NCBI GenBank assembly: GCA_026874595.1 | Contig: CM049306.1 | Span: 82,114,142-82,178,141, forward strand | Direction: 5' to 3' | Source: Sipunculus nudus | Lineage: Eukaryota; Annelida; Sipuncula; Golfingiida; Sipunculidae | Length of the DNA stretch: 64,000 nt | Shown here: in pieces, positions 2,606 to 31,138 of the stretch | Layout of the letters: each line of letters starts with the position of its first letter | Position numbering within the stretch: the stretch's first letter is position 1 | The notes under the pieces: generated by a model | The model's input: the letters and a program-made list of their open reading frames with translations, nothing else | Told to the model about the DNA's origin: nothing | Database searches by the model: none | Program-made: the position numbers and the translations under genes

Positions 2606-4399
2606 GTACATTCAAAATGGAGATCAATGCGCCATGGTTTTAGCGCTAAGCAGGTGCGAAAGGATATGATACTCAATCCGGGCCGTCAAAGGGTGCATTA
2701 CATCGCAAGCTCTAAATTTATTCCATCAGTATTATATGTCTGACGTAAAAAAAGCTTTTGTATCTAGATATATAGATTCAAAGTAGACTTAATGAACCCA
2801 CCATCCCTCTAGCAATGGGAGGACTTTGTGCCTGGAAGGAATGTTACACGAAAAGACAAGTGTGAAAGTCTAATCGGACTCAGGTCTCCGGGAAGATTCG
2901 TGTAAGCTATATTACCACAAGAAAACATCATTAGAATTCCTTGCGTTATCTTCCAAGAATCTTTCGAAACTTTGCTTCAGAGGGTCGATAAGTGCAAACA
3001 GAGTTAAAGATTTATTTCAATAAGCGAACTAGAGGAGCAAGCACAAGACTGTGTTAAGCCTTGAGAGACTATCCAAAATAGCCAAGCCTTAAGATGATCA
3101 AAGTTGTTCAAAGTTAAGAACTGACTGCGGAAGAGCGGGGTGGGCTGGTGAAATCGGAGACTTTTGCTATCTAATTGTGTGTCAGCGGATGGTGGGCTGC
3201 GCAACTTCTCAGGTAGCGACGACTCATTACCAGGCTTTGTCTCTCGTCTCAAACCCCGCCTCCTTTAGCTTTTTTAACCATAAAAGCTTAACAGGTATGA
3301 GACTATAAGTAGCGCTATCCCCTGGGTCCGCAGGAGTACGAACCCTGCTCTAAACTTGAACATCCTGATGGCCCTGAATAACAACCGATCATCTGATGGA
3401 CGAGTGAAAGGTAAGGCCAATACTTCTACCGGTTAGAAGCTATACTTGTTAATTAATGCTTTGTATATGCATAATGCATGTTAACTCAACAAGACATATC
3501 TTAAGAAGACTAAACTAAGGTTTATAATTATTCTGGAAGACATATGGTAGGATACGCGTGTTCAACATTTGAACGTTATAAGAAACGAATATTGGACAAC
3601 ATGTTCCATCAAGAAAGATAAGCTGCAGGTCGTGTGCGCTTACTATCATTGTATAACGATTGTTTTCCGTTCCTTCTGCTTATTTCGACTCAAGTTGTCT
3701 TACATCATTTCTCCTGGACCGTTGCCTATCAAGTAGAGGTATATGATCATGTGGTAATGCCATTATCAATCGTGCGAAACTATAACTATCAATGTTGGAG
3801 AAATACACAACGACAATAGTTTGAATAAAAAAGACACTCATAATTCAAAATTTGCTGAGACGTCCGATTTTAGAAGAATCAAAAAATGAATCAGTCGGCC
3901 ATATATGCACAAATAAATACTTTCAAAGTGAGTGACTGCATCAAGCAGAAGCTTGTAATTGCCTCGACTTACCGCAGTGTTTTTTATCTATTGATGCTGC
4001 CAATACTTAAAACACATTCAGAACAAATTCTTGGACGGTTTAATGTTAGTCTGAAGGGCTATCTCATGTTGTTTGATACATTCACCAGGGAATGGAAACA
4101 TTGGTAATGTGATTTATCTGCAATAAGTTTTATTCCTCGTTCACTAAACCCTCAAATCCTAGCCGATGGTCTGAACATATTAACATATTTTAAAATGTAA
4201 AGATATTTTGTGATTAGCTTAACATCGGTAATTCATTCATATGCTCCCCTGGAACATGTGGTCTGCAGGTATAAATCCCACATATCAGCAGCTTCTTTAA
4301 TATTAATACATCGGGATATTTCCGCAGCCTCTCAAGGGATGGTCGATCTCTAATAATCGTCATAATCATTAATTTTTGTTCCATCCTGATTTGATTGTT

Positions 4400-5690: not shown

Positions 5691-7895
5691 ATTTATTCAT
5701 TTACTCTGTTTTAAGTTTAGATAAGGTATAAATGTAGGTTAGATGCTTTTGTTGAGTGTCATGAATATAATATTTATCGTGAAAAATAAAATATTGATGC
5801 GTTTGAGATGCAAATATAAATTATTCAAATTCATACCAGCAAATGTAGGTCTGGTCTTATTTATTACAAGCCGTCTTTATAATATATCGCAAATGTCCTC
5901 GGAAAGTAAACATTCTTCAATCTGTTTGGTGGAATATGATGCAAGCTGCTATATCAAAACTGTGAGCTATTGTATATAAAAAAGAAAAAGGTAATCACTG
6001 AATCACAGTAATCATCGATACAGTCCTCTGATGATCTGCGACCTGTCAAAGTTTGTAACTGTCTGACGCATCTGCACTCGCCTTGCTGCGGTGGCAATAT
6101 ATTAACTCCTTATTATGTTCCTGTAAATATTTTTTTCTTAAATTTCAATTGGTTTTGTCGATATTGTGATCTTACTGTTGTTGATAGTACACATAGCATG
6201 AGAGACACTAATTGTTGTGTGGGTAACCGTTTGTAGGTTGCTTGCTTTGAGGTTATAGGGATGCCTGCTAAGACCTGCATGGTGGATAAAGTATATATAT
6301 GAGAATATACGTGGCATTAAATGCAGAAACATTATGCATCCCTCAATTACATTCCATTCTTTAGTAAAGCGCTTCAATAAGTAGATAGCCCTGGATGTAA
6401 TGTATGATGGACCAGAATCCAAGGGGGGGTGGGGGCTATATAGATAATAATTCGACTGTTTACTGTCTCGGTCGAAGGGGGGCGGGCGGGGTGTACAATG
6501 TCAGAAAAAATATTTTGGTCGTGAGCCCCCCCCCCCCCCCCCCCCATGCTAAAATCCTGCGCACGCCCTTGGTCCTGTATTAGTTGATTCAATACCTTTT
6601 GTGGATGTTTAACTTCTGTCTGGTAGCTGTCTGTAAGGTACTGTTGATAAACATTTATTCATCCTTTACTGAACGCAAAGGGACTAAACTTAACTTTAGA
6701 CATAAAGATAAACGTGGAACTAGACCTTAAGCTTTCGAAGGAGTACTGAAAACGTTTTTTTTTAATTTACTTTGTGCAATTCCTGGCTGTCATTTTTCAA
6801 TAAACTTGAAAACCTTTTGAACTGAAGAAATGTTTATATAGAGGACAACCGACTTATCATTGATTTTAAAGTTTCCGGTTCTTGTTCTAATTGGACTTTT
6901 ATAGTCAGAGAAAAATGGTATCTCAGAACTTAAATACTGAGAAACAGAGGAAAAGGAGAAGTACTTAGGTAGAGAGTAATTAGCGTTTTTTTAATAAATC
7001 CTTAAAGAGAGGGACTCTTTTAAAAAAGAATGATTTGACAGACCTGTGTTATATCTACTGAATACCTTACAGTTGAAACAAAAATATATATATATATATA
7101 AGACAATTTTTATTTTAACAAAGGGGTGATGATTCAGCAAGAATGCTTTTATAGTAGATTTCAAGCTGAAGTCTTTACATATTCTCTATGTTATGGGAAT
7201 TATTGGAGGAATTTCAACAATGGCGCCAATGTTAGACATTTCTTTCTGCTCCTTGCGGAAATGCGTTCAGCAGATTTAAGGTAATTTTATCATTTTTGCG
7301 GCGTTAGACTATCTCAAATGGTGAATGAATCTGTATCAAGATCACGTGTAGCAGTGCAACAAGTAAAATATAAACATTTTAAAAAACAAAAAAAATTTTA
7401 TTCAAAAGACCCAGTTTATGGGCATGCGTACATCTATAGTGAATAATACAGTATTAGGCCAAGAGTTCATATGCTGTCAGGTGCCTGTAATTTGTTATTA
7501 GAATTAAGGGGGCGATAAAAATGCGCTCAATTCTGGGTATGTATGGAGGAGGGGCGTCATAACTTATTTTGGCCAAACAACAGAATAAAACAGTTATACT
7601 GGAAATAATCGCATACTGACACCAAATATATGGTTTGATTATTATGTACTGATTTAAAGAAACCTCAAATTGAAGTATTTGAAGTATAATGAAGGAAAAT
7701 TATTTGTTTAATAATCGTTTTGGTGGCTGTATCCGCATCCACTTAACATTCAAATCTCATTCAATTAAATTGTAAGCATTAATCTGCTTTCTGAAAAAGG
7801 CATTGGTGAATATTAAATCATTGATTTCAATTTGGAACAACAATCAGATGTATTCACGAATTGATTGTATGCCAAGTAAGAACTTCCTAGGTCTC
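5691..7895. other. Non-coding, AT-rich; poly-C repeat end at 6.53 kb
   Basis: No exon recognised. On the - strand, gggcgtgcgcaggatttta leads into a 20-base poly-G run (6526-6545), another copy of the ggggcg/poly-G type of repeat end. A short (TA)n tract lies at about 7083-7100. Confidence 0.5.
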
Positions 7896-10119: not shown

Positions 10120-10334
10120 TTCTTCTCACTCTGCTATTGATACTAGTCACAGTATGTAATGGAGAATGGTGCCCGCAATGGCGCTGTCCCTGCCAGGGAA
10201 CGAGCTCGCACAGTGTGACTACAAGGGACAGTGCCAAGTTCATCAGATCTATTAAACCCAACCGGCTGTGGCAGCAAGTCGCCAGAAGAATCGAACAAAC
10301 CAAGAACGAACTAAGTAGCGTCCTCTTCAAGTTG
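10120..10334 (+). CDS. Second exon (first found) of a spliced gene for an unrecognised secreted protein: signal-peptide core and first helix
   Basis: The exon is bounded by a pyrimidine-rich acceptor (tattttcag, AG at 10118-10119) and a consensus donor (ttg|gtaagc, GT at 10335). It opens with the last two bases of a codon (upstream intron phase 1) and then reads 71 codons ending in phase 0. Residues 1-14 are very hydrophobic (LLTLLLILVTVCNG) and look like the core and cleavage region of a signal peptide. Next comes a tight cysteine cluster, WCPQWRCPC (Cys17, 22, 24). Residues about 35-71 are charged and predicted helical (RLWQQVARRIEQ region). The start codon must lie in an upstream exon that I could not identify, so the first few residues are missing. 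I recognise no family. Secretion is inferred from the hydrophobic leader and the cysteines. Confidence 0.72.
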
Positions 10335-11111
10335 GTAAGCTCTGATAGATTTACCTTATTTTTGAGGTTGCATCACTGGAAAAATCCCATATATATTTTT
10401 TATAATATTTCAATTTTTAAAGTTTAAAAAATATTTGAAATAGTACACTATTTTAAGCACCCAATAACAGCCAATTTTTAGCGATCTAATATTAAACTAC
10501 ATGACTAATTTCAAAATTTTCCTGTTATCCCTCTTTGTTGTCTCTTTATTACTGAAAACTGAAATTTAAAATTTTGATTAAATACACAATTTAAAATTTT
10601 ATTTTTCAACATGAAAGACCATATAGTAGACAACACTGCTACCTAAAATATTTTTATAATTAAATTTTTAGATTAAGTGTTTCTCCAACAAAAATATTAG
10701 GCATCACTATGATGCTGCATTCTGGTTAATATGGTAAATACGAGTTGACAAGTGGAAAACAGCGTTCGACACGTGGTCTTAGTGGTATTTGCCACCGGCA
10801 GACTGCATGGGGCTTCTAAGAGTAGCCTCATTTGTCCCACTTGGCGACCTTCACCTTTATCCACGGCAATGACGGCTGCCAGAGAGCAAATAATGAAACA
10901 GATATTTTACTAGTGTATGTAATAATTTTTAATGGCATACAAAATTGAACAAATGTGACATGAAACATATATTATATATAAGTTTCTGTTTGGTTACTTT
11001 TGCAACCTAGAAAAAAATCCGGTCAGTTAGCCTTTTATTGGGCACCGTAAGGTTGCAAGCCGTTTGTACTACTTGACTTCTGGTGATCACCATAGATTCC
11101 AGAGGTTACCT

Positions 11112-11375
11112 AAAAGAGTTAAGAACGGTTTCTGATGAAATTTTTTTTATAGTAAATTTTATACCCAATGAACATTCTAATAAATTCTTGAGGTAAACTA
11201 TGTCATCATAATCTATTTTTAAAAATAAAATGAAAAACTTTATGCAAAAAAGTGAAGAACGGATTTTGATGAAATTTGTTGGAGATTTAGTGTAAGATCC
11301 AAATAAAAATCCGTTAAATGCTTGAGGTAAGCTGGATCACCATAATATATTTTTAATTCAAAAGTTCAAAGGATT
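11112..11375 (+). repeat. Two-copy tandem duplication, period about 134 bp
   Basis: The first unit has gttaagaacgg..tgatgaaatt, then cttgaggtaaactatgtcatcataat. The second repeats the pattern 134 bases later as gtgaagaacgg..tgatgaaatt, then cttgaggtaagctggatcaccataat. It lies in the large intron; the units have diverged substantially. Confidence 0.55.
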
Positions 11376-11984
11376 ATAAACCATAGTAACACAGGGCGAC
11401 GGGGAGAACGCTCCATTCACAGCAAAAGGGCCCAGACCGTGAGGACAATGCAATACAACACCGCTCACAACACCTCGCCCGTCTTCGAATGTTCTTGGTA
11501 GACATATGTTATAATACGAATCCTAAGGAGAGTTTCCGAGTGGTGCAAAACGTAAAAACATGAATATGGGGTCCCGACGGTCGTGCGAGGGGCGGGTTTC
11601 AGGCACCTGTGATTGCATTTGTGATTTGTGACAGGTACCTGTGGTTTCAATTTCCGGACTTGCGTCTTGACTTAATTCTTGAAGTGCGGTCTCGAGTACA
11701 TAAGCGGTTTTGAGGAAGAAACTCTCAAAAGCGTTTCAATTTCGCGATCCAACTCAGGACTGTCTTGCCTTTCACCGTAAACAAATAATATACTCTGTAA
11801 ATGACCCGAAATCATTAGAGAGCACGTGTGGCAAAATTTAAGGTGTCATTATGTCATATTTAAAACTTTCATCAAAACTTTTTGGAAAAATTTTGCTTAC
11901 AACCCTCCCGTGATCTTTAAAGGGACACTCTTTCAAGATGAATTAAGCGAGATAATAAACAACAGAGCGACTCATCGCCCGCCC

Positions 11985-12195
11985 ACCCCAGAAGCAGATC
12001 CAGGGGGAGGGGCCAGGGGGTCCTCCCTTTTTTCAGCCACCGCAACCTTTTTTTTAAGGGTTTCAGGCCAATTTTTGCTGCCTGGACCCCTCCCCCATTT
12101 CCGGACAAGGGGACCTATTATTAGGTTTTGCAATTAATCCCCCTGGGTTGGACCCCTCCTTTTCCTCAATCCCGGATCCTCCCCTGCAGTGTCCT
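11985..12195. repeat. Purine/pyrimidine-rich repeat with inverted ends
   Basis: The left part reads gcagatccagggggagggg and the right part, on the other strand, gcaggggaggatccgggatt. This gives a loose inverted repeat of about 200 bp. It is consistent with a decayed non-autonomous DNA transposon of the ggggcgg(a/g)tcc type. Confidence 0.35.
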
Positions 12196-12529
12196 GGTCA
12201 GCCAAGTGTATCCTTAATTGATCTTTCTGTCCTCACCCTGAATGGCTACCCATCTAGGAAATAATGATCGCATTAAAAAACATATATTCATTTTCAATCT
12301 TTATTTCCCAACGGACTCAACTGCAAAATACGTGACGGCAATAAGCTCTTAGTCTGGACCAGAACTCATGCCACTGTTGACCAAATATCCAGATCGTATA
12401 GGCAACCAGTGGCGTCAATTTATCTTCAAAGGTGAGGGGGATGACTCACATGCATGGGAGGGTACTTAAATATAAGGTATTCTGTTTATAGTATACATGT
12501 TAATTCTAAGCATGGTTTAGATTTATAAT

Positions 12530-13060
12530 AAGAACAGAACAGAAGTTTATTCAGGAAAAAGGCTTCAGGCCCAAAGTTCCAAACAATTCAAAGGTAATTC
12601 AGTCAAATAATTGCATAGAAATAACATACAGTAGCAATTTAACATTAATAAATAATGACTTTAACACATATTACATTACTGCATATACTGCCACAACTCT
12701 TAATGCTGTTGCTTCATTCGGTGTATTTTGACCTACATTTAAGATATATTTGCAAAATTTTAATTGCACTCTCTCTCTAAAGTTTCTGATTTTTTAAAAA
12801 CCCATAATTCACACCAATTTTTTAATACTGGCACTAAAATTTGTTCAAAAAGATAAAAAAAGATGTTTTGTACTAACGTATGTTGGTGTATTTTTGACCA
12901 AGATAATTTGTGGAGAAAGTAATACCAAGATAATTAAAGTATGGAACCACTTCTAACTGTTCACCTTTCAAATACCATCTTTTGTGTCTACACAATTAAC
13001 CATATCATCTGCAAATAACAAAGTCATTATATGTTAAAGATTACCATTTATATATCCCTT
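12530..13060 (-). pseudogene. Decayed LINE reverse-transcriptase fragment with FADD motif
   Basis: On the - strand near 13000-13035 the sequence translates to TLLFADDMV, the catalytic palm motif of a reverse transcriptase. It is followed, after one frameshift, by RWYLKGEQLEVVPYFNYLGI, typical of the segment after the active site in mollusc LINEs. Further on come LFEQILVPVLKN-CELW and a KYILNVGQNTPNEA-like stretch with several frame breaks. The element ends near 12540, where ctttgggcctgaagcctttt and a gaataaa resemble a LINE 3' end. It is too decayed to encode protein. It lies antisense within the 9.9-kb intron of the secreted-protein gene. Confidence 0.7.
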
Positions 13061-13278
13061 GACAATTGTTTCTGTGTAAATTATTACATTACTCATCTTT
13101 AAATGAAGAAAAGTTAAGATATATATTATTTCAAAGTAAATTCAGAAATGGGACCAATGTCTATTATTCTAATTATTAATATATTTCATTTCCAATTAAT
13201 CAATATATTCTCTGAAGGGGATGATTACAATGATGGCAGTCCCCCTTGTTAAAAAGAAAGGCAAAATATACCCAGACA

Positions 13279-13293
13279 CCCCCCCCCCCCCCC
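13279..13293. repeat. Poly-C tract next to a gacgcccctg repeat end
   Basis: A 15-base C run is followed by gtatgacgcccctg. The mirror motif agtggcgtcaattt occurs at about 12409 on the + strand. The LINE fragment between them may therefore have landed in an older inverted-repeat element. Confidence 0.4.
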
Positions 13294-13517
13294 GTATGAC
13301 GCCCCTGTAAAAAAACATATTTTGATATATTTTTTCAGCAGTTTACAACGCTCGATTTTTCCCTAACGAGTGTTAGATATCCAGCGACCTCTTCAGATTG
13401 GCAGGAAGAATCATATTGGTAATTGTGGTGAAAGACTCAAAGACGAAACATCTGTCCATTTTTCAGTACGGTGTCACTTAAGTCACTGAACAGCACAATA
13501 GCTTAGATATTTTTTTT

Positions 13518-13800
13518 TCTAAACTAAAAATCTGCATTCTAAGGAATGCAAACCTCCGCCATGTTCACATATTCGGCCAATATTCCCAAGTTTCATTCGT
13601 GTATAAGTGACATGTAGATTTGAAAATATTCATTGATGAAGTTCCTTAATCCGGATCCTGTGCCTGATCGACACCAACATCAAATCCCAGAAATGCCCGG
13701 AAAATTTCATGACATTCCGTTGATGACTGTGTGAGTTATCTTGTGAAGAAACACAGACACAAACACACACGAACGAGGATGAACGCATACCATCCCAGCT
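13518..13800 (+). repeat. Dispersed repeat family C, copy 1
   Basis: It begins aaatctgcattct and continues with cctccgccat, attcggcc, ttcattcgtg, a gatccn-tgcctgatcgacacc block, and a tail of ttgtgaagaaacacagacac with CA-rich sequence. The same order is found at 43553-43835 (full) and 14915-15025 (first third only). Non-coding. The CA-rich end and the recurrence suggest an old non-autonomous element. Confidence 0.6.
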
Positions 13801-14914
13801 GAGGCAATTGTAGACTGTGTTTTAATTCAGTACACAGGTTAATCTCCCTGTATGCTACCTCTCTGCCTGCCAATGCCTTCTCTAATTACAGCTGCGTCAT
13901 AACCAGCTACAGGAAGCGTTAATGTTAGCCACAGAGTTGGATACACATGTACATTGCGTCTTTCATGCAGATGCTTTCTTTGCTTACCATAGAACGTATA
14001 ATGTTCTGGCTCGCAAAGACATATCGTTAAATATTCCAAACTGAATCATGTATTCTCAGTTAGCTGATAAAAAGGAGAATAAGCTCAGCGATGCTGTCAG
14101 CAGAAGGAGAACAACAATGATATTTTTTTTAACTTCGCATTAGCTTACCATTAACGTTACCATATTCTTTGTTCTGTGTGGCTTATGGCATTCTGACCAT
14201 ACCTTTTGTAAACCTTTCGCCACATGTCAGTGTTAAGAGATCATTGTTGCTGTTAAGGTATTATAATGAACATTTGAAGTTTTGTTCTGAATTTCACCCG
14301 TTTAATTGCTTTTTATCAGCACTTGGATGATTAATGTTTGTGGAGAGTAGTTATTTATTATTATGTTCTACCCTTGGTTATTGGATTTGCAATGACGGTA
14401 AAATTTCTTAAAATATTTTGTGGAGAGTCTGTATCGAGGCCCAGAGCCATTGTGGTAGAGCTATCAGTGAATTTAGTGGATGAACCGTGAAAACATTTCC
14501 TGTGTTGTGTAGTTTGATAAGGGTCCTGGCGGAGGGTTGTGGTCTCTGACTAATTTCTTGGTATGTCATCCGGTCATCAGGTATTTGCTTGCTTCTTAAT
14601 ATGTGATCATTCCCAGACCATTGAATTTTCTGTTGTTCCTGGTATTTACGTTGGAGGTGGCATGGAATGCATATCTCAGGTTAACGACCGGTGGGTCGTA
14701 TGTTGAAAGTCTACTCACAAATAAAAATATGTCATTGTCCGCCGTCTCTCCATCCTCATTCCGTTTACATATACGCGTCAGCCCCCCACAGTGCAAACTT
14801 GGCCTTTTTTTAATTAAAAAATGTTTCACCAAGAATAAAACTAATTTCTTATTCCGCTGATCTTTTTGAGTATCCGACATCCTTTCACAGCAGTGACAGA
14901 GAAACGCACAGAAG

Positions 14915-15025
14915 AACTAGAAATCTGCATTCTGAGGAATGCATGCCTCCGCCATTCACTAACACGTATTCGGCCCATATTCTCAGGTTCATTTGTGCAT
15001 AAGTGTAAGGCATATCCTTGCCAAT
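14915..15025 (+). repeat. Dispersed repeat family C, truncated copy 2
   Basis: It matches the first third of the copy at 13.5 kb (aaatctgcattctgaggaatg, cctccgccattcac, tattcggcccatatt). It stops shortly before the 3' end of the L1-like LINE that lies to its right. Confidence 0.6.
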
Positions 15026-15515
15026 TATTTTTTCTTTCTTTTTTATAGATGTCTCAGAGATATTATTATTTTTTTCGTGTATCATCATTGACATCCATGT
15101 TTATTTGTGGACAATACAAATACAAGAGTACAATTACTACCTACGTCTATCCACCAACAGAGTCATATAACACACAAATACAAAGACAATTCACACTTTA
15201 CACTAATGCACCAATCCTTTTATAATTAATCTTTTACTTATTTGTATATTATATGCCATCTTTGTTTTTCTTTTTTTTTCTGTGTTCTACATTTCTACAT
15301 TTAACAGATATATATATAAGTGCCAGTTTATAAATTAGAACGTTCATTTGCAGATCCAACAACAACTTTTACTTCAGCTGCAATAAACAAACCGTACTTG
15401 TTCTGTACCAAAGAAACTACTAAACTTCATTCCAACTAAAATTCATTCAACACCCATATGTGTTTTTTATTTTAATTCTGTGAATTGTTCTACCAAACAT
15501 ATTATATATTACATG

Positions 15516-16004
15516 TTACAGGAAACTACTTAAAGGCTCCCATTTTTTAGTGTGAAACCTCATTTTATTATTGTTTGATGCTATTTTACTTTCAATATTA
15601 TAGACACTTTTTAAGCGATGTAAAAAATGATGAAACAGTTGACGTACTACACATTCCCCACTCCTTAATAATAACTCACGACTTTGAAATAGTGTTATTC
15701 TAAAAACAAGCATAATGTGATTAATTAACAAGTTACTTTCACTGACAGGAATAGTACCAAACAATGCAATTTCTTTGGACCAGTAGGGAAGATTTAATTG
15801 TGACTCTTCAAATTGTCTTTTGATGTTTAAGAATAAGTTTGTAGCTGTGTTACATTCATAGAATAAGTGCACTGTTGATTCTTCATTTATTAAACAGTAG
15901 GAACATCTGTTTGAATCTTTTAATTTCCATTTATATAGTAACTTGTGTACACTCAGATAATTCTCGTGAATATGTGTCGAAAGTGATTTTGTAAATAGCC
16001 TCAC
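15516..16004 (-). pseudogene. LINE C-terminal zinc-finger (zf-RVT) region
   Basis: A 162-codon open stretch with KWKLKDSNRCSYCLINEE followed by VHLFYEC, the Cys-x2-Cys ... His-x4-Cys arrangement of the zf-RVT module near the end of many L1/Tx1-like ORF2 proteins. It is the last coding part of the LINE; about 400 bp of 3' untranslated sequence follow. It is not an independent gene. Confidence 0.8.
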
Positions 16005-16119
16005 AGCAATTTACCCACATCTCTTTATCAATATTATGATTTATGGTCCACCAGTGAAATGCAGAAGATAATAAAAATTTCTTTTCAATCAAACTCGTAT
16101 ATATTAGTTTCCAACTTAC

Positions 16120-17055
16120 TTACAGAAATTCTGCACGTTCTTTCATTGTAGGTTTGTGTATTTCTTTAATTATATTTAGCCACTCCTTAGGAATGGCATG
16201 ATATATTTGCATAAGATTTAAATAATCAATTTGATTCAAATCATTATCCTTACTTATAACCTCCTCCATTTTTAAGATTTTTCCATTTGTATCTACTGTG
16301 TCTGAAATAAACTTAAATCCTGCCTTAAACAACTTTTTGTAAAATAAACTTTTCTTTTTCATCAAAATGAACTTGTTATTCCATAAAGGTTGTTGTTAAA
16401 CTTGATCTTGTGAAATAGGATATTTTTCCTGTGTGGATGTCCATGCCTTTAAACATTCTACATAAAACGTAGGAAGTGAGTTTGGTTTTCTTGTTATATC
16501 ATCATTATATCCTATAGCTGAAAGACCTCCTATTCTTGTTAAGAAGAAAGAAGGTATTGCTTTCCATTGTTCCATATCTGTATTCAGTAATCTTTTCGTC
16601 CACATTATTCGCTTTGTTTGTATCATTGATTTAACATCAGGTATTTATAATCCTCCTTGATTATATTCCCCAATCGCTGTTAAGTATTTTACTTTAGGTC
16701 TTTTTGATTTCCATATAAAATTATTACACTCATGCTGAATTATTCAATAAAACCTTCTGGCGGAGAACATACATTCCAAACATATACAAGTTTTGAAATT
16801 ACTAAAGACCTAATTATCTCAATCCTTCCAAATTTGGTTAACTGTCTTCTTGACCATATATTTAAAACGGCTATGAAGTCCCGTTCTCTTTTTAAAAAAA
16901 ATTAAGTGTATTGAACAGTGTGGTATCATAGGTAAATTGGATACCTAGGAGTTTAATAGAACCTTGATAAAGATTAACCCATTTGCAGTCTCCTTTTTTT
17001 CTCTTCTGCATTTCCATTTACCGAGCCAAGCAAGCCCAGATTTATTATAATTTAC
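16120..17055 (-). pseudogene. LINE post-RT region, decayed
   Basis: After the deletion at the RT active site, the - strand reads GLAWLGKW and, with several frame breaks, YLTAIGEYNQGG, IPDVKSMIQTKRIMW, QWKAIPSFFLTRIGG and IYHAIPKEWLNIIKE. These are typical of the connector between RT and the C-terminal zinc-finger in L1/Tx1-like LINEs. No intact frame runs through. Confidence 0.75.
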
Positions 17056-17060
17056 TCTGA

Positions 17061-18176
17061 CTAATCAGCAAATATACACTGTCTTAGTTCGCTGCTTGCG
17101 ACCTTAATTCCCTTTAAATCTTTACTTTGGCGAACCATACAAGCCATTACCTCTATTACCAGTATAAACAGATAAGGAGCAATCGGGTCTCCTTGCCTAG
17201 TTCCTCGTTTCAGAGGAAAGTATCCTGAAGACATTCCATTATTAATTATGCAGCTTTCTAGATTATTATGTAACACCTTGATCCATCTTATAAAAGAAAT
17301 ATGAAAACCCATTTTTTCTAGAACTGCTATCAAAAATATGTGATCAACTGAATCAAATGCAGCTTCAAAATCAGCAGCCATCGTTAAACCGGACATATTT
17401 TCTTGTTCTGTATATCTCATGACATCTGATATAATTCTTAATGGTACGCCAATGTACCTTCCATATAAAAATGCACACAGGTCTCCTTTTATTAACTCAG
17501 GCAAAACTCTTTATAACCTGTTGCAAAGTACTTTACTTAGTATTTTAACGTCCACGTTGATAAGGCTAATTGGACGCCATGATTTAAATAATCTAATATC
17601 TTTGCCTGTTTTTTCAATTAATATAATTATTGCTTGTCTTTGGCTTAGGGTCATTTCACCGGATTCCAAACAATAATTAAAACACTGTAACACATCTGGT
17701 CCGACATCTTGAAGGAAATTCATATAAAATTCTTTAGACAGTCCATCATTCCCAGGTGATTTATTGTTCTTCATACTCTTTAATACATCATTTATTTCAT
17801 CCATCGTTACAGGACCAGAACATATGTTAGCATCTTCCTCAGACAGGCAGGGTACATTTATAGTTGAGAGAAAATATTTACACTCCTCTATAGTAAGTGA
17901 GCTTGTTCTTTCATACTTTTCTTTGTATAATTTATTTAATTCATTTAATATTTCCTGACCATCGGTGATTTCTTTATCTTCTACCATCAGTCTTCTAACA
18001 AAACTTTTGGATTTATTTCTTTTCTGAAGGTTCAAAAAGTATTTTGTGCTTTTCTCACCTTGCTCATACCACTTTGTGCGGGATCTTATAATTAAACCCT
18101 CTGTTATATAATCATTACACTTTTCCAGTGTCTTCTTAGCTTCTAAATAAGCGGTTACTTTCTCATTTGTGGACAC
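17061..18176 (-). pseudogene. LINE reverse-transcriptase domain, broken
   Basis: Two adjacent open stretches (18176-17511 and 17504-17061) lie in one frame, separated by a single TAA where the family usually has a lysine-type residue between CNRL and VLPELI. RT motifs seen: NNKSPGNDGL, WRPISLINVD, the palm MAADFEAAFDSVDH (first catalytic Asp), RQGDPIAPYLF, then CIFAD followed at once by a stop. The second Asp of the F-A-D-D active site and about 35-40 following residues are absent, because the next recognisable sequence (VNYNKSGLAWLGKW) follows directly. A frameshift also lies just before 18176. The enzyme cannot be active. Confidence 0.88.
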
Positions 18177-19554
18177 TCTTTTCTAGTTCGTTAACAATTT
18201 TCTCTAAGTCTTTGTATTCTTTTTTAAATTTTCTTGCCTTGTTTTTACTATATTCAGAGGTATATTTCCTAATATAATATAAATATTATATAATAATATA
18301 TATAATATAGTAAAGCGTTATTAAATTTCCAATAACTCGGGCCATGCTTTTGCTCCTGAAAAGAAGCATAAAAACAATATAGCTGAATGATCAGAGTCCA
18401 CTGCTGTTAAGATGTCACTTCCTGTTACGTATGGTTGTAAAGGAGTGAACTCCTTGCCAATTTAATTCAACTAACAATATGTAAACAACAGATTCTTCAC
18501 ATGCCGTCTGAACAACAGCACATGAACAAAAAACGGATCAGGTTTATATGGCTTTATTTTATTGGTCAAAATATCGAAGAAATCTCACCAATGTGAAAAA
18601 GACGCTAGAACAGCCCTCTTGATCGAAGTCTGCGTCAGCGTAATTTCCACAGACTTGATGGTAAGAAGATGATCTCTGTCAATATGCAAATAAATTCATG
18701 ATACTGACAGGCTTGGTAAAAATCGATATTATTAAATGACACGTCTATAAGGGTAAACAAATGTTTCTAAAAACTCTAAACATAACATCAGCAGTACTAC
18801 TTTTATTTTTGAGTCAAGGAGATTACACTAGTAATGTCACGGTTGGTATTTCAAAAAATGTTTTTGTCATACACCCTTTAGTACAGTCTAAAATAGGGAC
18901 TGAAAGATGATATGAAGTAACTAGGTGTACATACTCGCCAAGCGATCACTGCGGGCAAAAACTCGGATCGGAATGTGTGACCTTGGCAATACGGTCAAGG
19001 TCAATAATAGATATCCGGAGCACATCTGTGAACTAGAAGCAATATTGGATTTTAGCGCAACAGATAATGGCGGAAGAAAAGAAACAAACACTGAAATCGT
19101 TGTTTTGGTTTACCCAAATATGAATATAGAAAAAAAAGACACATTAAAATCTGGTAAACCTCTGTCGGATATCTCTTTTTTGTTTAACTGAAAAACAGAG
19201 AGAAGTAACATGAACTCATACGATGAACTCATACGATGAACTACCAAAGTGCAGAAAATATATTAATGAGATGATTTGTGTAAAGGTTCACCAACGCAAT
19301 GTTTGCCCTAAAGGTCAACTCTGCAAGCCGAAACAAAGGCGGTACCTCATATCAGGGAATAACCCTCGGCCGATAAAAATCTCATCATGGTAGAGAATAA
19401 TTTGAAGACAATTCAGAAGCTGATTCAGAAAACCTACAAAATGTACTGTATTGTTCCTTTGGTGTCACCCTAAACCTCCATGAATTCTCTTCTCTTGTTT
19501 TTTATTTATTTTTTTTTGGAAGGGGGGGGGGGGAAGTATAATTGCAAACAGCCC

Positions 19555-19940
19555 AATCAACAAAATAATAATAATAATTTATTTTATATGGAGTAAAAGC
19601 ACATATGTGCTCTTAAACGCTTAACACACATTGAAATACACATAAATATTATAGCTGAGTAGATAATCTACACGAAAACTTAAAATATAAAATAGAAAAT
19701 ACTGAAAACTATGATGTACATGTATCACTAAGAAATGCCCACGGTTATTAAATGAAAATAAATAAATAAAGATGGTAAAAATTTACATACAATCGTATGC
19801 CTTTATAAAAAGGTGTGTTTTCAGTTGTTTTTTAAAACGTTCAAGTGTGACTGCAGATTACAAATGTTGAGGTAATTCGTTTCATAATCTAGGCCCTGAA
19901 AAAAACTAAAAGCTCGTTCCATAGCAAAAGTCCACCTTGA
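19555..19940 (-). pseudogene. 3' end of a second LINE (CR1/L2/Rex-like C-terminus)
   Basis: On the - strand from 19896 the frame reads GPRL-*-NELPQHL-*-SAVTLERF, then KKQLKTHLFIKAYDCM and a terminal stop at 19785-19783. This is the characteristic last segment of many CR1/L2/Jockey-group LINE polymerases, with the usual Trp and Arg codons turned into stops. About 220 bp of 3' UTR and a microsatellite-like ttattattattattttg end follow at about 19560. A 12-base poly-G run borders it at 19522-19533. Confidence 0.75.
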
Positions 19941-20268
19941 GAATGGTACTACCAAATAAGCAACCTAACAACCCACCAAACTACTAATAATCCATGGACG
20001 ATTATAAATATACTTTTTGGCGGAGTTAGAATAGTCAAGCAAACCAGCAGGTTCTGCATTGAAATCATACACTTACACATACACAATACATAATAATTTA
20101 TATACAAATATGTATAAATATATATATGTGTGTACATATATTTATATATATAAATAATAATTATCATCATTGTTATTGTTGTGTTATTATTATTATTATT
20201 ATTATTATTTTATTTTTTTTTATAATTATTTAAGTATGGTTTAACCTGGATATCTGGATATATTGCAG

Positions 20269-20418
20269 TTCAAGGACAGACTGAAACAACACAGTGACAC
20301 ACGGGATAACTTGGAAAGCTGTACAAGAGATCGGGATCAGTGTATGGAGATTTTACTGAGTGAGAATTGTACCCTTAAGGGGGTACCACATATAACAGAC
20401 GGACGCTACGAGATCGGG
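20269..20418 (+). CDS. Third exon of the same secreted-protein gene: charged helix with three cysteines
   Basis: The exon has an acceptor at tattgcag (AG at 20267-20268) and a textbook donor (ggg|gtaagt, GT at 20419). It is exactly 150 bp, 50 codons, phase 0 at both ends, so it joins in frame with the 10.1 kb exon and the 22.5 kb exon. It supplies residues 72-121 of the partial product. It opens with a strongly charged, probably helical run (FKDRLKQHSDTRDNLESC) that continues the helix begun in the previous exon. It holds Cys89, Cys96 and Cys105, spaced i/i+7/i+9, and one possible N-glycosylation sequon (N104-C-T). The intron before it is 9.9 kb and carries several LINE remnants; a MITE starts only 50 bp after the donor. 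Confidence 0.75.
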
Positions 20419-20468
20419 GTAAGTGGCTATGTGGGTGCAGTTCAGTATAGCTGAAATACACGGTCTAA

Positions 20469-20796
20469 GGCCAAAATAAAAAAAAAGGTATGGTTCTCAG
20501 GCACTTTTTTCTTAAATCAATGCTGGCGGTCGGTTTTTTTATTTTATTTTTTGGTATGTTTCGATATAAATGATAAGAGAAAAGCATGATAATAACAGAT
20601 TTATTTTGCTAAACAAGTAATTGCACTACATAACAAAGGAAAGTGTATAATTTTATCTTCTTGAAAGAACTGTCCGAGCGGCTGCAGCTCAAAATAGGTA
20701 AGTTCCTATTGAAAATCAAAATAAAAATATTTGATGCGGGGATTTAAAATTTATGCGGGCGGTGCCTGAGAACCATACCTTTTATTTTTTATGGCC
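20469..20796 (+). mobile_element. MITE family A, copy 2
   Basis: A 328-bp copy with outer GGCC at both ends (20469 and 20793), AGGTATGGTTCTCAGGCAC on the left and GTGCCTGAGAACCATACCT on the right. Flanking bases are taa on both sides, a possible TAA target duplication. It contains the internal ctgtccgagcggctgcagct segment shared with the 41.4 kb copy. It begins only 50 bp after the donor of the 20.3 kb exon. Confidence 0.8.
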
Positions 20797-22039
20797 TAAT
20801 ACCTCGGTGCTATAGCTGGGTTCGGCTCCCCTGGGACCCTGATTTAAAGTAGACAATAAATTTTAACATGTTCCGTGAAAAATCTGTTAACGACCACATC
20901 ATTGTTTAAAGACCAGCTCGAAATAACGACTTTTTTTTATTTTCCCGATTTCCACCTCTTTTTTTCCTCTCATATTTAAACCTTTAAATAGAGGGAACTT
21001 TTTTCTGTTTTACGGACACTTTCTTATTGACCCTTATTATGCGACCACTAAAAATTGAGAAAACATGACCGGAACAAGTGTAGCCCGGTGTTGAACAGAA
21101 ACAAACGCAATGCGTCAGTAACTGATACAGGCAAAATATAAAAAAAACTGCAACAGATAAAAAATAGCGCTACAGCTCTAGTGACGTAACCATGCATGTT
21201 CCCGTCAAGGCTTAGGCACGCCCCATATCAGAAAGCACCAATCTCCAAAAATCTTCAGATTTATTCTATGATTTCGGGTAAAATATATTAAATGATGTTT
21301 AATTTAAAAGTTAAACTAAAAAAGTCAAAACAGCTTCACTTTTTATTAATCGGTTTCTGAATTCAATAATTCGTTAGCCATAATTATTATTATTATTAAA
21401 AGTATGAAATCGCATAAAAAAACTAAACTTTGCCAATTTGGAGTTTTTTATATCATCAAGGAATACCACATGCAGTCCTTGAAGTCAGCGGGGTCGTTCG
21501 AACGCACCCAACGAACCCCAGAGGCCTTTGTGGTTTATAATAAGCAAATACGAGAATACAACCCAGTGTGTTACATAATTACACACGGAACATCAGAACA
21601 CACAGAAGGTGTTATAAAATGATACTTCAGATGCCTGGAATACCACGGGCATCAGTTCGAATCGATGGCATCCTGTAAACCTGGACTCTTTGAATATAAT
21701 TTTGATACTAAATTCTCTATCCGATTCTGCTATGTGTAACAGAGACTTGTCCAGGGACTTCAGAGTAAACGGCCCGTGTCGTCGGCCTAGGTATCGTTTG
21801 CAGGAATAGTTTTATAATGAGGTTTTCTAAATATGTTATGCAGGTATTTGAACTGTCAAACCACCACAAGTAACTTTTTTTACTTGTATCGTTGGACTTT
21901 GTTATTTTACCGTAATCACTTTCATGACATAGCACAACACATCAACATACACAGAATAATTTCATTATTTTATAACAATATATATTAACTTGTTATAATC
22001 ATTTTCATCACATTTAATGGAACAGTATTTTGTATTAAT

Positions 22040-22312
22040 TATTATTATTTTATCGTAATATGCATTTTTATGATAAGGATAATAATGATGAAGATGGTAA
22101 TAATGATGATGATAATGATAATAAAAATAAAAATAATAATAATAATAATGATAATTATAATGAAATTATTTCATTATAATTATTATAAGTAGTAGTAGCA
22201 GTAGTAGTCGTCGTAGTCTTTTTATTAGCCGTAGTAGAAGTAGATGTGGCATTAGAAGTACTGTTATAATAATTATAACAATAATCATAATAATAATAAT
22301 AATTATTATTAA

Positions 22313-22357
<45 letters not shown>

Positions 22358-22480
22358 TATTATTATTATTATTTTTATTATTATCATCATTACTTTTTTT
22401 ATTTTTATTATTTTTATTATTATTAATATTATTATTATTATTATTACTATTACTATTTCTTTTATTCCTGATTTTTTATT
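22040..22480. repeat. (AAT/ATT)n microsatellite region abutting an exon acceptor
   Basis: About 400 bp of imperfect AAT/ATT trinucleotide repeats with short tag/tac variants, changing phase from AAT-rich to ATT-rich along + strand. The final ATT-rich part supplies the pyrimidine-rich run just before the acceptor at 22486-22487. Poly-Ile frames across it are artefacts. Confidence 0.9.
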
Positions 22481-22487
22481 ATTACAG

Positions 22488-22853
22488 AAAAGTGATTTGT
22501 CAAGACTGTTGGGAGAGGATGCAATGAAGATGGCGATCCACCTAGACCACGCTTACAACATAACACACTCGCAATACAACAAGAACTACCGTATTGACGA
22601 CCACCACAAAGAAATACAGAAAATCCGCGACAACCACCTGTACGACCTACTGTGCTCAATCAGAAAGCTGCTGTCAAAGTCCTGGCCACTTCCGGTCAAC
22701 GAGTCCATCGTTCAGCCCATGTGCCGGAAGTTACACGTATCGGGAACGGACCACCGGAACTACATGCTGTTTTACGTGCTACAACAAATGTTTGACAAGC
22801 TCTACCGCCTGAAGTACCACCCCAAGTACAAATTCCTGTTCGACTACAAGTAA
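22488..22853 (+). CDS. Terminal coding exon of the secreted-protein gene: C-terminal helical domain
   Basis: The acceptor is attattacag (AG at 22486-22487), phase 0, followed by 121 codons and a TAA at 22851-22853. GC content is clearly higher than in the flanking DNA, as expected for a coding exon. The exon supplies residues 122-242. It has two probable amphipathic helices, around 158-184 (EIQKIRDNHLYDLLCSIRKL) and 208-230 (HRNYMLFYVLQQMFDKLYRL). It has Cys177 and Cys200 and possible N-glycosylation sites at N145-I-T and N192-E-S. The mature product would have eight cysteines, an even number that fits four disulfides. A helical, disulfide-bonded secreted ligand with phase-0 introns between helices recalls helical cytokines, but I see no diagnostic motif, so function is left open. 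An AATAAA lies about 300 bp after the stop. Confidence 0.8.
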   Translation, partial: KSDLSRLLGEDAMKMAIHLDHAYNITHSQYNKNYRIDDHHKEIQKIRDNHLYDLLCSIRKLLSKSWPLPVNESIVQPMCRKLHVSGTDHRNYMLFYVLQQMFDKLYRLKYHPKYKFLFDYK

Positions 22854-23154: not shown

Positions 23155-23160
23155 AATAAA
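23155..23160 (+). promoter_or_regulatory. Probable polyadenylation signal AATAAA of the secreted-protein gene
   Basis: A canonical AATAAA lies 302 bp downstream of the TAA that ends the terminal exon. The interval 22854-23154 would be the 3' untranslated region. The hexamer is common by chance in AT-rich DNA; the distance and strand make it plausible. Confidence 0.45.
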
Positions 23161-29796: not shown

Positions 29797-30921
29797 CTAT
29801 ACATTATGAGTGGAGGAGACAGATGTTGCAAGTGTATGCATGGACTCGTTCCTGTCCACGTGTTGGCGACAGCGATAGCACAAGATTGTCCGCTTGATGG
29901 CCTTTCTGAAGTGTCGGTTAAACGAGTAGTACAAGAATGGGTTGAGGGTAGAGTTTATATATCCCAGCCATAGCGCCACCGCCCAGGCATTGTAGGGAAG
30001 GCGGTAACGGATGAACGGATCCGTCAAGTTCAAGATAAAAAACGGGCACCAGCACACACAAAAACATCCCATAATAATGCTGAGAGTCTTAAAAGCTTTC
30101 GTTTCGTGTTTCATGCTTTTCACCGAGCGATTCCCGTACACCGCCGCCTCAAGGCTCCGGATTTGCACCGCTTGTTTCTTGGCCTCCATGTAAATCCTCG
30201 TATTCAGTATGAACATAAATATGGTCGGAACATAGAACGCTACTGAGGAACAGATGATAGCGAAGGGGATATTGACCATGAAGACACAAGCCCTGCCATC
30301 TGGCGGCATGCGGCAATCTATGTGTTGTTTTATTCCAATTTGGTTCCATTCGTTCATAATTGGCAGCCACGAGATAAAAATTGGGACTACCCAGCAAGCC
30401 GCGATGAACCCAAGCACCATTTTCTTTGTGACGCGCTCATGGTAAAAGGGACGGCAGATAGCGAAGTAGCGATCCATGGCGACGCATGACAGATGTAAAA
30501 TGGAGGTTGTGGTCAGCATGACATCCATACATGTGGTTATCTTACACATGATATGTCCAAGGTCCCAAGTGTGATTCGTCCAGAGATTATAAACTCCAAA
30601 CGGCATGACCAATAGTGCTACCAAAGAGTCCGCCACGGCTAGCGACATCACAAAATAGTTGGTAAACGTTTGAAGTTGTCGGAAAGTCAAGATTGATATG
30701 ATGATAATGGCATTGCCGCTGACGGTTAGTACAATGATAATGAGTAAAAACAGGACTAGAAAAACCCTTGATACAAGGCCGTACTCAGGTGGCGGCGAGC
30801 CGCTCTCCAGACACACGGGTCCGGCGCTGCTGTTCAGGTCACTCGGTGTGAAGGTCATACTTGATGTCCAGCCTTCACTTTGGTTCCAGAACCTGTACAC
30901 GGGGTCGGTGTGATCAGCCAT
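29797..30921 (-). CDS. HTR4-like: Serotonin 5-HT4-like G protein-coupled receptor
   Basis: A complete 374-residue class A amine receptor on one uninterrupted exon. Visible landmarks: extracellular N-terminus with sequons at N13 and N30; TM1 about 51-76 with SGNAI; TM2 with LAVAD (95-99); TM3 Cys126 and the amine-binding Asp133 in MDVMLTTTS; DRY at 150-152; TM4 about 168-188; second-loop Cys212, probable disulfide partner of Cys126; TM5 about 217-239; TM6 with CWCPFF (290-295); TM7 with NPFLY (327-331); possible palmitoylation Cys348 and Cys351; short tail ending THNV. The TM4 to second-loop stretch (VVPIFISWLPIM, then CVFMVN before TM5) and MGCFCVCW in TM6 match what I know of 5-HT4 receptors better than 5-HT1/2/6/7, dopamine, octopamine or histamine H2 receptors. 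The family binds serotonin at the plasma membrane and usually couples through Gs to cAMP. Ligand and coupling are inferred. An alternative C-terminus by splicing cannot be excluded. Confidence 0.9.
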   Translation of the reverse strand: MADHTDPVYRFWNQSEGWTSSMTFTPSDLNSSAGPVCLESGSPPPEYGLVSRVFLVLFLLIIIVLTVSGNAIIIISILTFRQLQTFTNYFVMSLAVADSLVALLVMPFGVYNLWTNHTWDLGHIMCKITTCMDVMLTTTSILHLSCVAMDRYFAICRPFYHERVTKKMVLGFIAACWVVPIFISWLPIMNEWNQIGIKQHIDCRMPPDGRACVFMVNIPFAIICSSVAFYVPTIFMFILNTRIYMEAKKQAVQIRSLEAAVYGNRSVKSMKHETKAFKTLSIIMGCFCVCWCPFFILNLTDPFIRYRLPYNAWAVALWLGYINSTLNPFLYYSFNRHFRKAIKRTILCYRCRQHVDRNESMHTLATSVSSTHNV

Positions 30922-30961
30922 TGAGAACCATGTTCCCGTGGCCCCAATCTCCTCTCCTCCT
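30922..30961 (-). other. Splice acceptor and short 5' leader of the 5-HT4-like receptor exon
   Basis: On the - strand the sequence ttcttctcattgcag precedes the receptor exon. It has a good polypyrimidine tract, with the AG at 30961-30960. The exon would begin 38 bases before the ATG, and those 38 bases contain no stop in frame with the receptor (reading back G-E-E-I-G-A-T-G-T-W-F-S before the Met). Either they are 5' untranslated leader joined to an upstream exon, or the protein begins further upstream in another exon. The given Met is the first in-frame Met of the exon and gives a normal-length N-terminus. Confidence 0.55.
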
Positions 30962-31138
30962 GCAATGAGAAGAAAAAAAAGTGAAAGTTAATATGTACGG
31001 CCTCATAGGTAAATTGATTGATAGGTGGAGTTGTTGGTGCCGGCGTCATCATCCTGCACAGATTTCCAGCACCTGTAGGGAGTGCTAGCTCATGGTACGA
31101 TTCACCTGGTTTTTATGTTTGCTTGATGCCGGAGTCAC

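Follow-up and report, generated by a model that had tools for sequence, protein, structure and literature searches.

A probable spliced gene for a secreted, helix-rich protein without a recognised family

The window, by which is meant the whole stretch of DNA analysed (64 kb, GC content 0.37), resembles animal DNA to judge by its genes and carries on its plus strand three exons, located at 10120-10334 (exon A), 20269-20418 (exon B) and 22488-22853 (exon C). Exon A is preceded by CAG and followed by GTAAGC, exon B lies between CAG and GTAAGT, and exon C follows CAG and ends in TAA. The phase is 1 into exon A, whose first two bases complete a split codon, and 0 at both the A/B and B/C borders, after which the frame runs to the stop. 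The same borders, frames and 242-residue product had been proposed in an earlier note on this DNA and were recovered here. Exon A, an open frame flanked by AG and GT, encodes the end of a leader (LLTLLLILVTVCNG), a WCPQWRCPC cluster and the predicted start of the first long helix. Exon B, the less certain of the three, encodes three cysteines (C-x6-C-x8-C) and the sequon NCT, and is of phase 0 on both sides. Exon C is the terminal coding exon, with 121 amino acids followed by TAA, two cysteines, two sequons and further predicted helices. About 300 bases past the stop, at 23155-23160 of the plus strand, a possible polyadenylation signal AATAAA is found by pattern, which may be a chance occurrence since the plus strand of the window contains 82 such hexamers.

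The splice sites are of unequal quality. The exon A donor is matched or exceeded in score by 68 of the 3546 GT sites of the plus strand, and that of exon B (GTAAGT after GGG) is equalled by 14 of them, itself included. The CAG acceptor of exon B is poor, with 8 pyrimidines in the 16 positions of its tract and a score of -1.1, and exon A joins exon C in frame when exon B is skipped. The gene model starts at exon A and lacks the first exon. With a looser donor threshold, eight candidates running from an ATG to a donor were found upstream, against 0 to 6 in 11 other 10-kb stretches; some of them are nested and none stands out. The top-scoring one (3368-3410, MALNNNRSSDGRVK) has an equally good counterpart in 3 of 12 ten-kb stretches, its own included.

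On the minus strand, at 29797-30987, one long open frame encodes a receptor of the rhodopsin family (7tm_1, E 4.6e-59) in which the DRY and NPxxY motifs are present and for which the PDB offers a 5-HT4 receptor fusion as the closest match (7xt8, E 1.5e-86); judged from its sequence, the frame may hold the whole coding region in one exon, starting near MADHTDP. By a codon score trained on this gene, a single training gene and as such a weak yardstick, exon C is matched by none of 120,534 background windows (none of 243 open ones), exon A by 138 of 122,034 (36 of 2243 open ones) and exon B by 5,520 of 122,664 (1408 of 7141 open ones), the counts not being independent because the background windows overlap. 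The same score prefers the true frame of the three in exons A, B and C alike. A second coding measure gave exon B 0.009 in its own frame against 0.026 in another frame and 0.094 on the opposite strand, with 1219 of 7141 open windows equally good. An unfiltered scan combining codon and splice scores over candidates of 90-300 bases returned 20 at least as good as exon A on the plus strand (itself included) and 251 on the minus strand, 247 of which overlap the receptor gene and 4 lie outside it; at the level of exon B there were 287 on the plus strand (itself included, 16 overlapping the receptor gene) and 500 on the minus strand (415 overlapping it). The GC content of exons A, B and C is 0.49, 0.46 and 0.47, compared with 0.23-0.34 in the five flanks measured (0.23 and 0.33 on the two sides of exon B), and that of third positions is 0.63 overall (0.58, 0.50 and 0.71, respectively). 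On the codon-score and scan counts exon C is firmly coding-like and exon A is fair as a coding exon; the coding signal of exon B is weak and does not prove the exon by itself, and its good donor, its rise in GC and its place in the exon order speak for it. When the product was searched by tblastn within the window, it found its own exons alone, the next match having an E-value of 0.40.

The joined exons translate into 242 amino acids, and the mature product has a calculated mass of 27.3 kDa and pI of 9.3. A core of about 11 hydrophobic residues is followed by a small-residue cleavage context, an arrangement that fits the usual rules for a signal peptide. Cysteines occupy residues 12, 17, 22, 24, 89, 96, 105, 177 and 200, and as Cys12 falls inside the leader, eight would be kept in the mature product; the sequons are at residues 104, 145 and 192. 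Thus, the hydrophobic leader, the WCPQWRCPC cluster, the eight cysteines and the three sequons described previously are all present in the translation. The leader, the small-residue cleavage context and the even number of cysteines argue for a secreted protein. Of the several amphipathic helices also described, two are clear, at residues 48-65 and 170-187, and amphipathicity is moderate, because 71 of 2000 shuffled sequences reach the mean helical moment of the product and 200 of 2000 its share of windows above 0.5. Beside the Pfam search reported below, no enzyme-like motif known to us was recognised in the product.

Structure prediction, put forward in the earlier note as a check, was carried out with AlphaFold (AF2) on exons A and C separately and without relatives; it returned helices in both exons, at low confidence in exon C. 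Exon A was modelled with helices at 34-43 and 48-70, the successive ten-residue blocks over the latter having pLDDT values of 74, 91, 88 and 72, and with two short strands (9-12 and 15-18) in the leader region; the whole model has a pLDDT of 70.9 and a pTM of 0.32. Exon C was modelled with helices at 3-31, 36-65, 72-81 and 90-110, equivalent to residues of approximately 124-152, 157-186, 193-202 and 211-231 of the product, and this model, with a mean pLDDT of 46.5 and a pTM of 0.30, is not good enough to demonstrate a bundle. Taken together, the two models suggest that one long helix is followed, after an extended connection, by a closely linked pair of helices and then, after a longer link, by the final helix. 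Such an order is that of the long-chain helical cytokines, and it is found in other helical bundles as well.

Searches in family and structure collections agree with the earlier note, to which no family with this pattern was known. No Pfam family scored above cut-off, the sole weak match being DUF632 with exon C (E 0.077), the sequences of the PDB gave no meaningful match (best E 0.17), and Rfam gave nothing at gathering scores. Exon C drew 37 pattern matches from viral_contigs and 69 from genome_contigs, collections ill-suited to animal genes, and by tblastn none of these encodes a relative. A secreted, helix-rich, cysteine-containing product without a recognised family is supported by these results, and the locus is probably a real gene for such an orphan.

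The reading favoured here, with a probability of roughly 0.7, is that of a real gene for a secreted glycoprotein folded as a helical bundle and most likely acting as an extracellular ligand or binding partner. The exons as sequence, the leader, the cysteines, the sequons and the tendency of exons A and C to form helices are read directly; from them we infer a protein, its first exon missing from the model, that would be cleaved after NG to leave about 228 residues (178 if exon B is skipped), and would be glycosylated and crosslinked by disulphides. Its working parts would be a disulphide-rich N-terminal knot, with three cysteines in eight residues, one long helix across the border of exons A and B, and three helices from exon C, the whole forming a disulphide-braced helical bundle. 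Outside the cell, the bundle would make a surface contact with a receptor or with another secreted protein. A ligand role is compatible with the predicted helix and loop order and with the intron phases, and homology adds nothing to it.

In the foremost alternative, given somewhat less than an even chance, the secreted product would be lineage-specific and serve structure or defence, as do proteins of haemolymph, eggs, sperm, mucus or the shell matrix; it would be helical by happenstance and no ligand. The lack of a Pfam family above cut-off favours it, as does the frequency of orphan secreted proteins in invertebrate genomes; against it, no internal repeat and no strong composition bias are seen by eye in the product.

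A narrower form of the secreted-ligand explanation would make the product an invertebrate four-helix cytokine or hormone of class-I type, activating a gp130/IL6R-like or CRLF3-like receptor and the JAK-STAT pathway; on the models and alignments this is rather unlikely. In this layout exons A and B would supply helix A, and exon C the other three helices (B, C and D); the A-B and C-D crossovers would be long and the B-C link short, in line with the helix order and loop lengths predicted from the exon models. The phases of the introns (1, 0, 0) place phase 0 introns between helical blocks, as in class-I helical cytokine genes, LIF and IL-6 among them. According to PMC2654155, the genes of the IL10 family, IL3, IL21 and IFNL1 split no codons and exon 1' of IFNL2/3 ends one base into a codon, so that some helical cytokine genes have phase 0 introns, in certain cases preceded by a first intron of phase 1. 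However, another source (PMC1626468) reports phase 1 introns to be over-represented near the points where signal peptides are cleaved and phase 0 to be the commonest in most coding regions, and therefore the phases, proposed earlier as suiting a ligand, match some helical cytokine genes without singling out a ligand.

The proposal of a cytokine- or hormone-like ligand, which the helix and loop order and the phases fit, found no homology in alignments, profiles or Pfam. Pairwise alignments with shuffled controls were made against human GH, PRL, EPO and leptin, and a second set against G-CSF, IL-6, LIF, GH, PRL and EPO (72 comparisons, three gap schemes, 400 shuffles). Exon C, GH-like by eye, gave a few local matches with GH and PRL, out of register, and 48 (GH) and 165 (PRL) of 1000 shuffles did as well; EPO and leptin showed nothing. 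Exon B, in which C-x6-C and a downstream LKGVP recall the A-B loop of G-CSF, was matched by 388, 290 and 387 of 400 shuffles against G-CSF, and by 186, 90 and 51 of 400 against IL-6 under the three gap schemes. The best of the 72 comparisons paired LIF with the mature product at cheap gap costs, where 1 and 6 of 400 shuffles were as good, followed by GH with exon C (16 of 400, PRL giving 49 of 400 in the same repeat alignment). As controls, IL-6/G-CSF and GH/PRL were matched by 0 of 400 shuffles, but LIF/IL-6 by 243 and EPO/GH by 320.

A further set of 21 comparisons, with 2000 shuffles each way, covered LIF, OSM, CNTF and four non-cytokine decoys. End-to-end with cheap gaps, human LIF was equalled by 17 of 2000 controls when the query was shuffled and by 13 of 2000 when LIF was shuffled, CNTF by 57 and 72, and OSM by 267 and 310; the decoys gave 80 and 168 (calmodulin), 199 and 262 (myoglobin), 1096 and 1304 (ferritin), and 892 and 1109 (ApoE). 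Under standard gap costs 712 and 689 of 2000 controls did as well as LIF and the signal was gone. Being one among 72 and 21 comparisons, the LIF signal counts as a hint only. It was also lost in profile comparison by hhalign, where 77 plain and 76 pattern-preserving shuffles of 100 were as good for the LIF family, 11 and 11 for IL-6/G-CSF, and 18 and 20 for GH/PRL; the ferritin decoy, with 2 and 0, outperformed all the cytokines, and myoglobin gave 56 and 69. As a sequence comparison, this does not support the cytokine reading. No cytokine model was found in Pfam at E-values up to 10, the IL-6/G-CSF profile (PF00489) included, though human IL-6 used as a control weakly matches the IL11, IL23 and GCSF models. 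Hence neither Pfam at that threshold nor hhalign against shuffles gave a match to a known class-I cytokine family, and neither alignment nor hhalign (18 of 100) gave in-register similarity to GH/PRL across the helices. These are weak negatives, because true class-I relatives often miss one another too: LIF and IL-6 did so in the alignment controls, human LIF as a phmmer query retrieved none of the other cytokines at E-values up to 1, and G-CSF found IL-6 only at E 0.33 and above.

Compared with vertebrate cytokines of the LIF/CNTF/IL-6 type, the product would share secretion, disulphide bracing, four helices and long A-B and C-D loops, which are here only predicted, as well as phase 0 introns; it differs from them in having no convincing sequence or profile similarity. 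To our knowledge, members of that family do not carry an N-terminal cluster like WCPQWRCPC. The GH/PRL family also consists of helical secreted hormones of similar size; the handful of local matches that it shares with exon C fall out of register and, as set out above, lack significance. The amphioxus GH-like protein has 208 residues (PMC9010856). In titles and the first lines of abstracts, with few subscription journals covered, no lophotrochozoan class-I helical ligand appeared, and the closest among the matches listed was the interferon-like protein of oyster. This protein, CgIFNLP, is presented in PMC8218723 as a proposed secreted mollusc cytokine of about 15 kDa that binds a receptor driving a STAT3 reporter, against 27.3 kDa for the mature product here, the two being compared by description only. 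Molluscs are reported in PMC13203501 to have an IL6R-like receptor, JAK and STAT, with no IL-6-like ligand found, and CRLF3, an insect receptor, has no known endogenous ligand according to PMC6797617. That the product is an invertebrate class-I helical cytokine and the missing ligand of IL6R-like or CRLF3-like receptors is improbable. Nevertheless, if the species group fits, having an actual secreted helical candidate would allow such missing-ligand questions to be addressed through expression and receptor assays; if it is no ligand, it would be one more lineage-restricted secreted protein.

The secreted-ligand reading has to be weighed also against a larger extracellular or membrane protein, to which the exons would belong together with more exons 5' and in which the hydrophobic stretch would form a membrane segment or lie internally. 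This is improbable as well. Exon 1 is missing and none of the eight upstream candidates is singled out, and, were the missing exon to lengthen it, the leader could belong to a more extended membrane segment; but a hydrophobic core of its size is short for crossing a membrane, and its context resembles, by the usual rules, that of a signal peptide. An artefact in which open stretches were chained by chance is very improbable, since exon C beats every background window, exons A and C have a GC content well above that of the measured flanks and all three exons share one joined frame, even though exon B alone is within background and 19 other plus-strand candidates equal exon A.

The A-B intron contains, at approximately 15516-18182 of the minus strand, a reverse transcriptase element in pieces that lie in separate open frames (RVT_1, E 5.9e-13; zf-RVT, E 4.5e-06; RVT_1, E 0.0063). 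AT/TA and ATA/ATT repeats are numerous in the window, as at 22266-22457, where the ATA/ATT tract stops about 30 bases before exon C. An open frame with a glycine run (RAQDFSMGGGGGGAHDQNIFSDIVHPARPP), at 6374-6658 of the minus strand, is possibly part of a repeat element.
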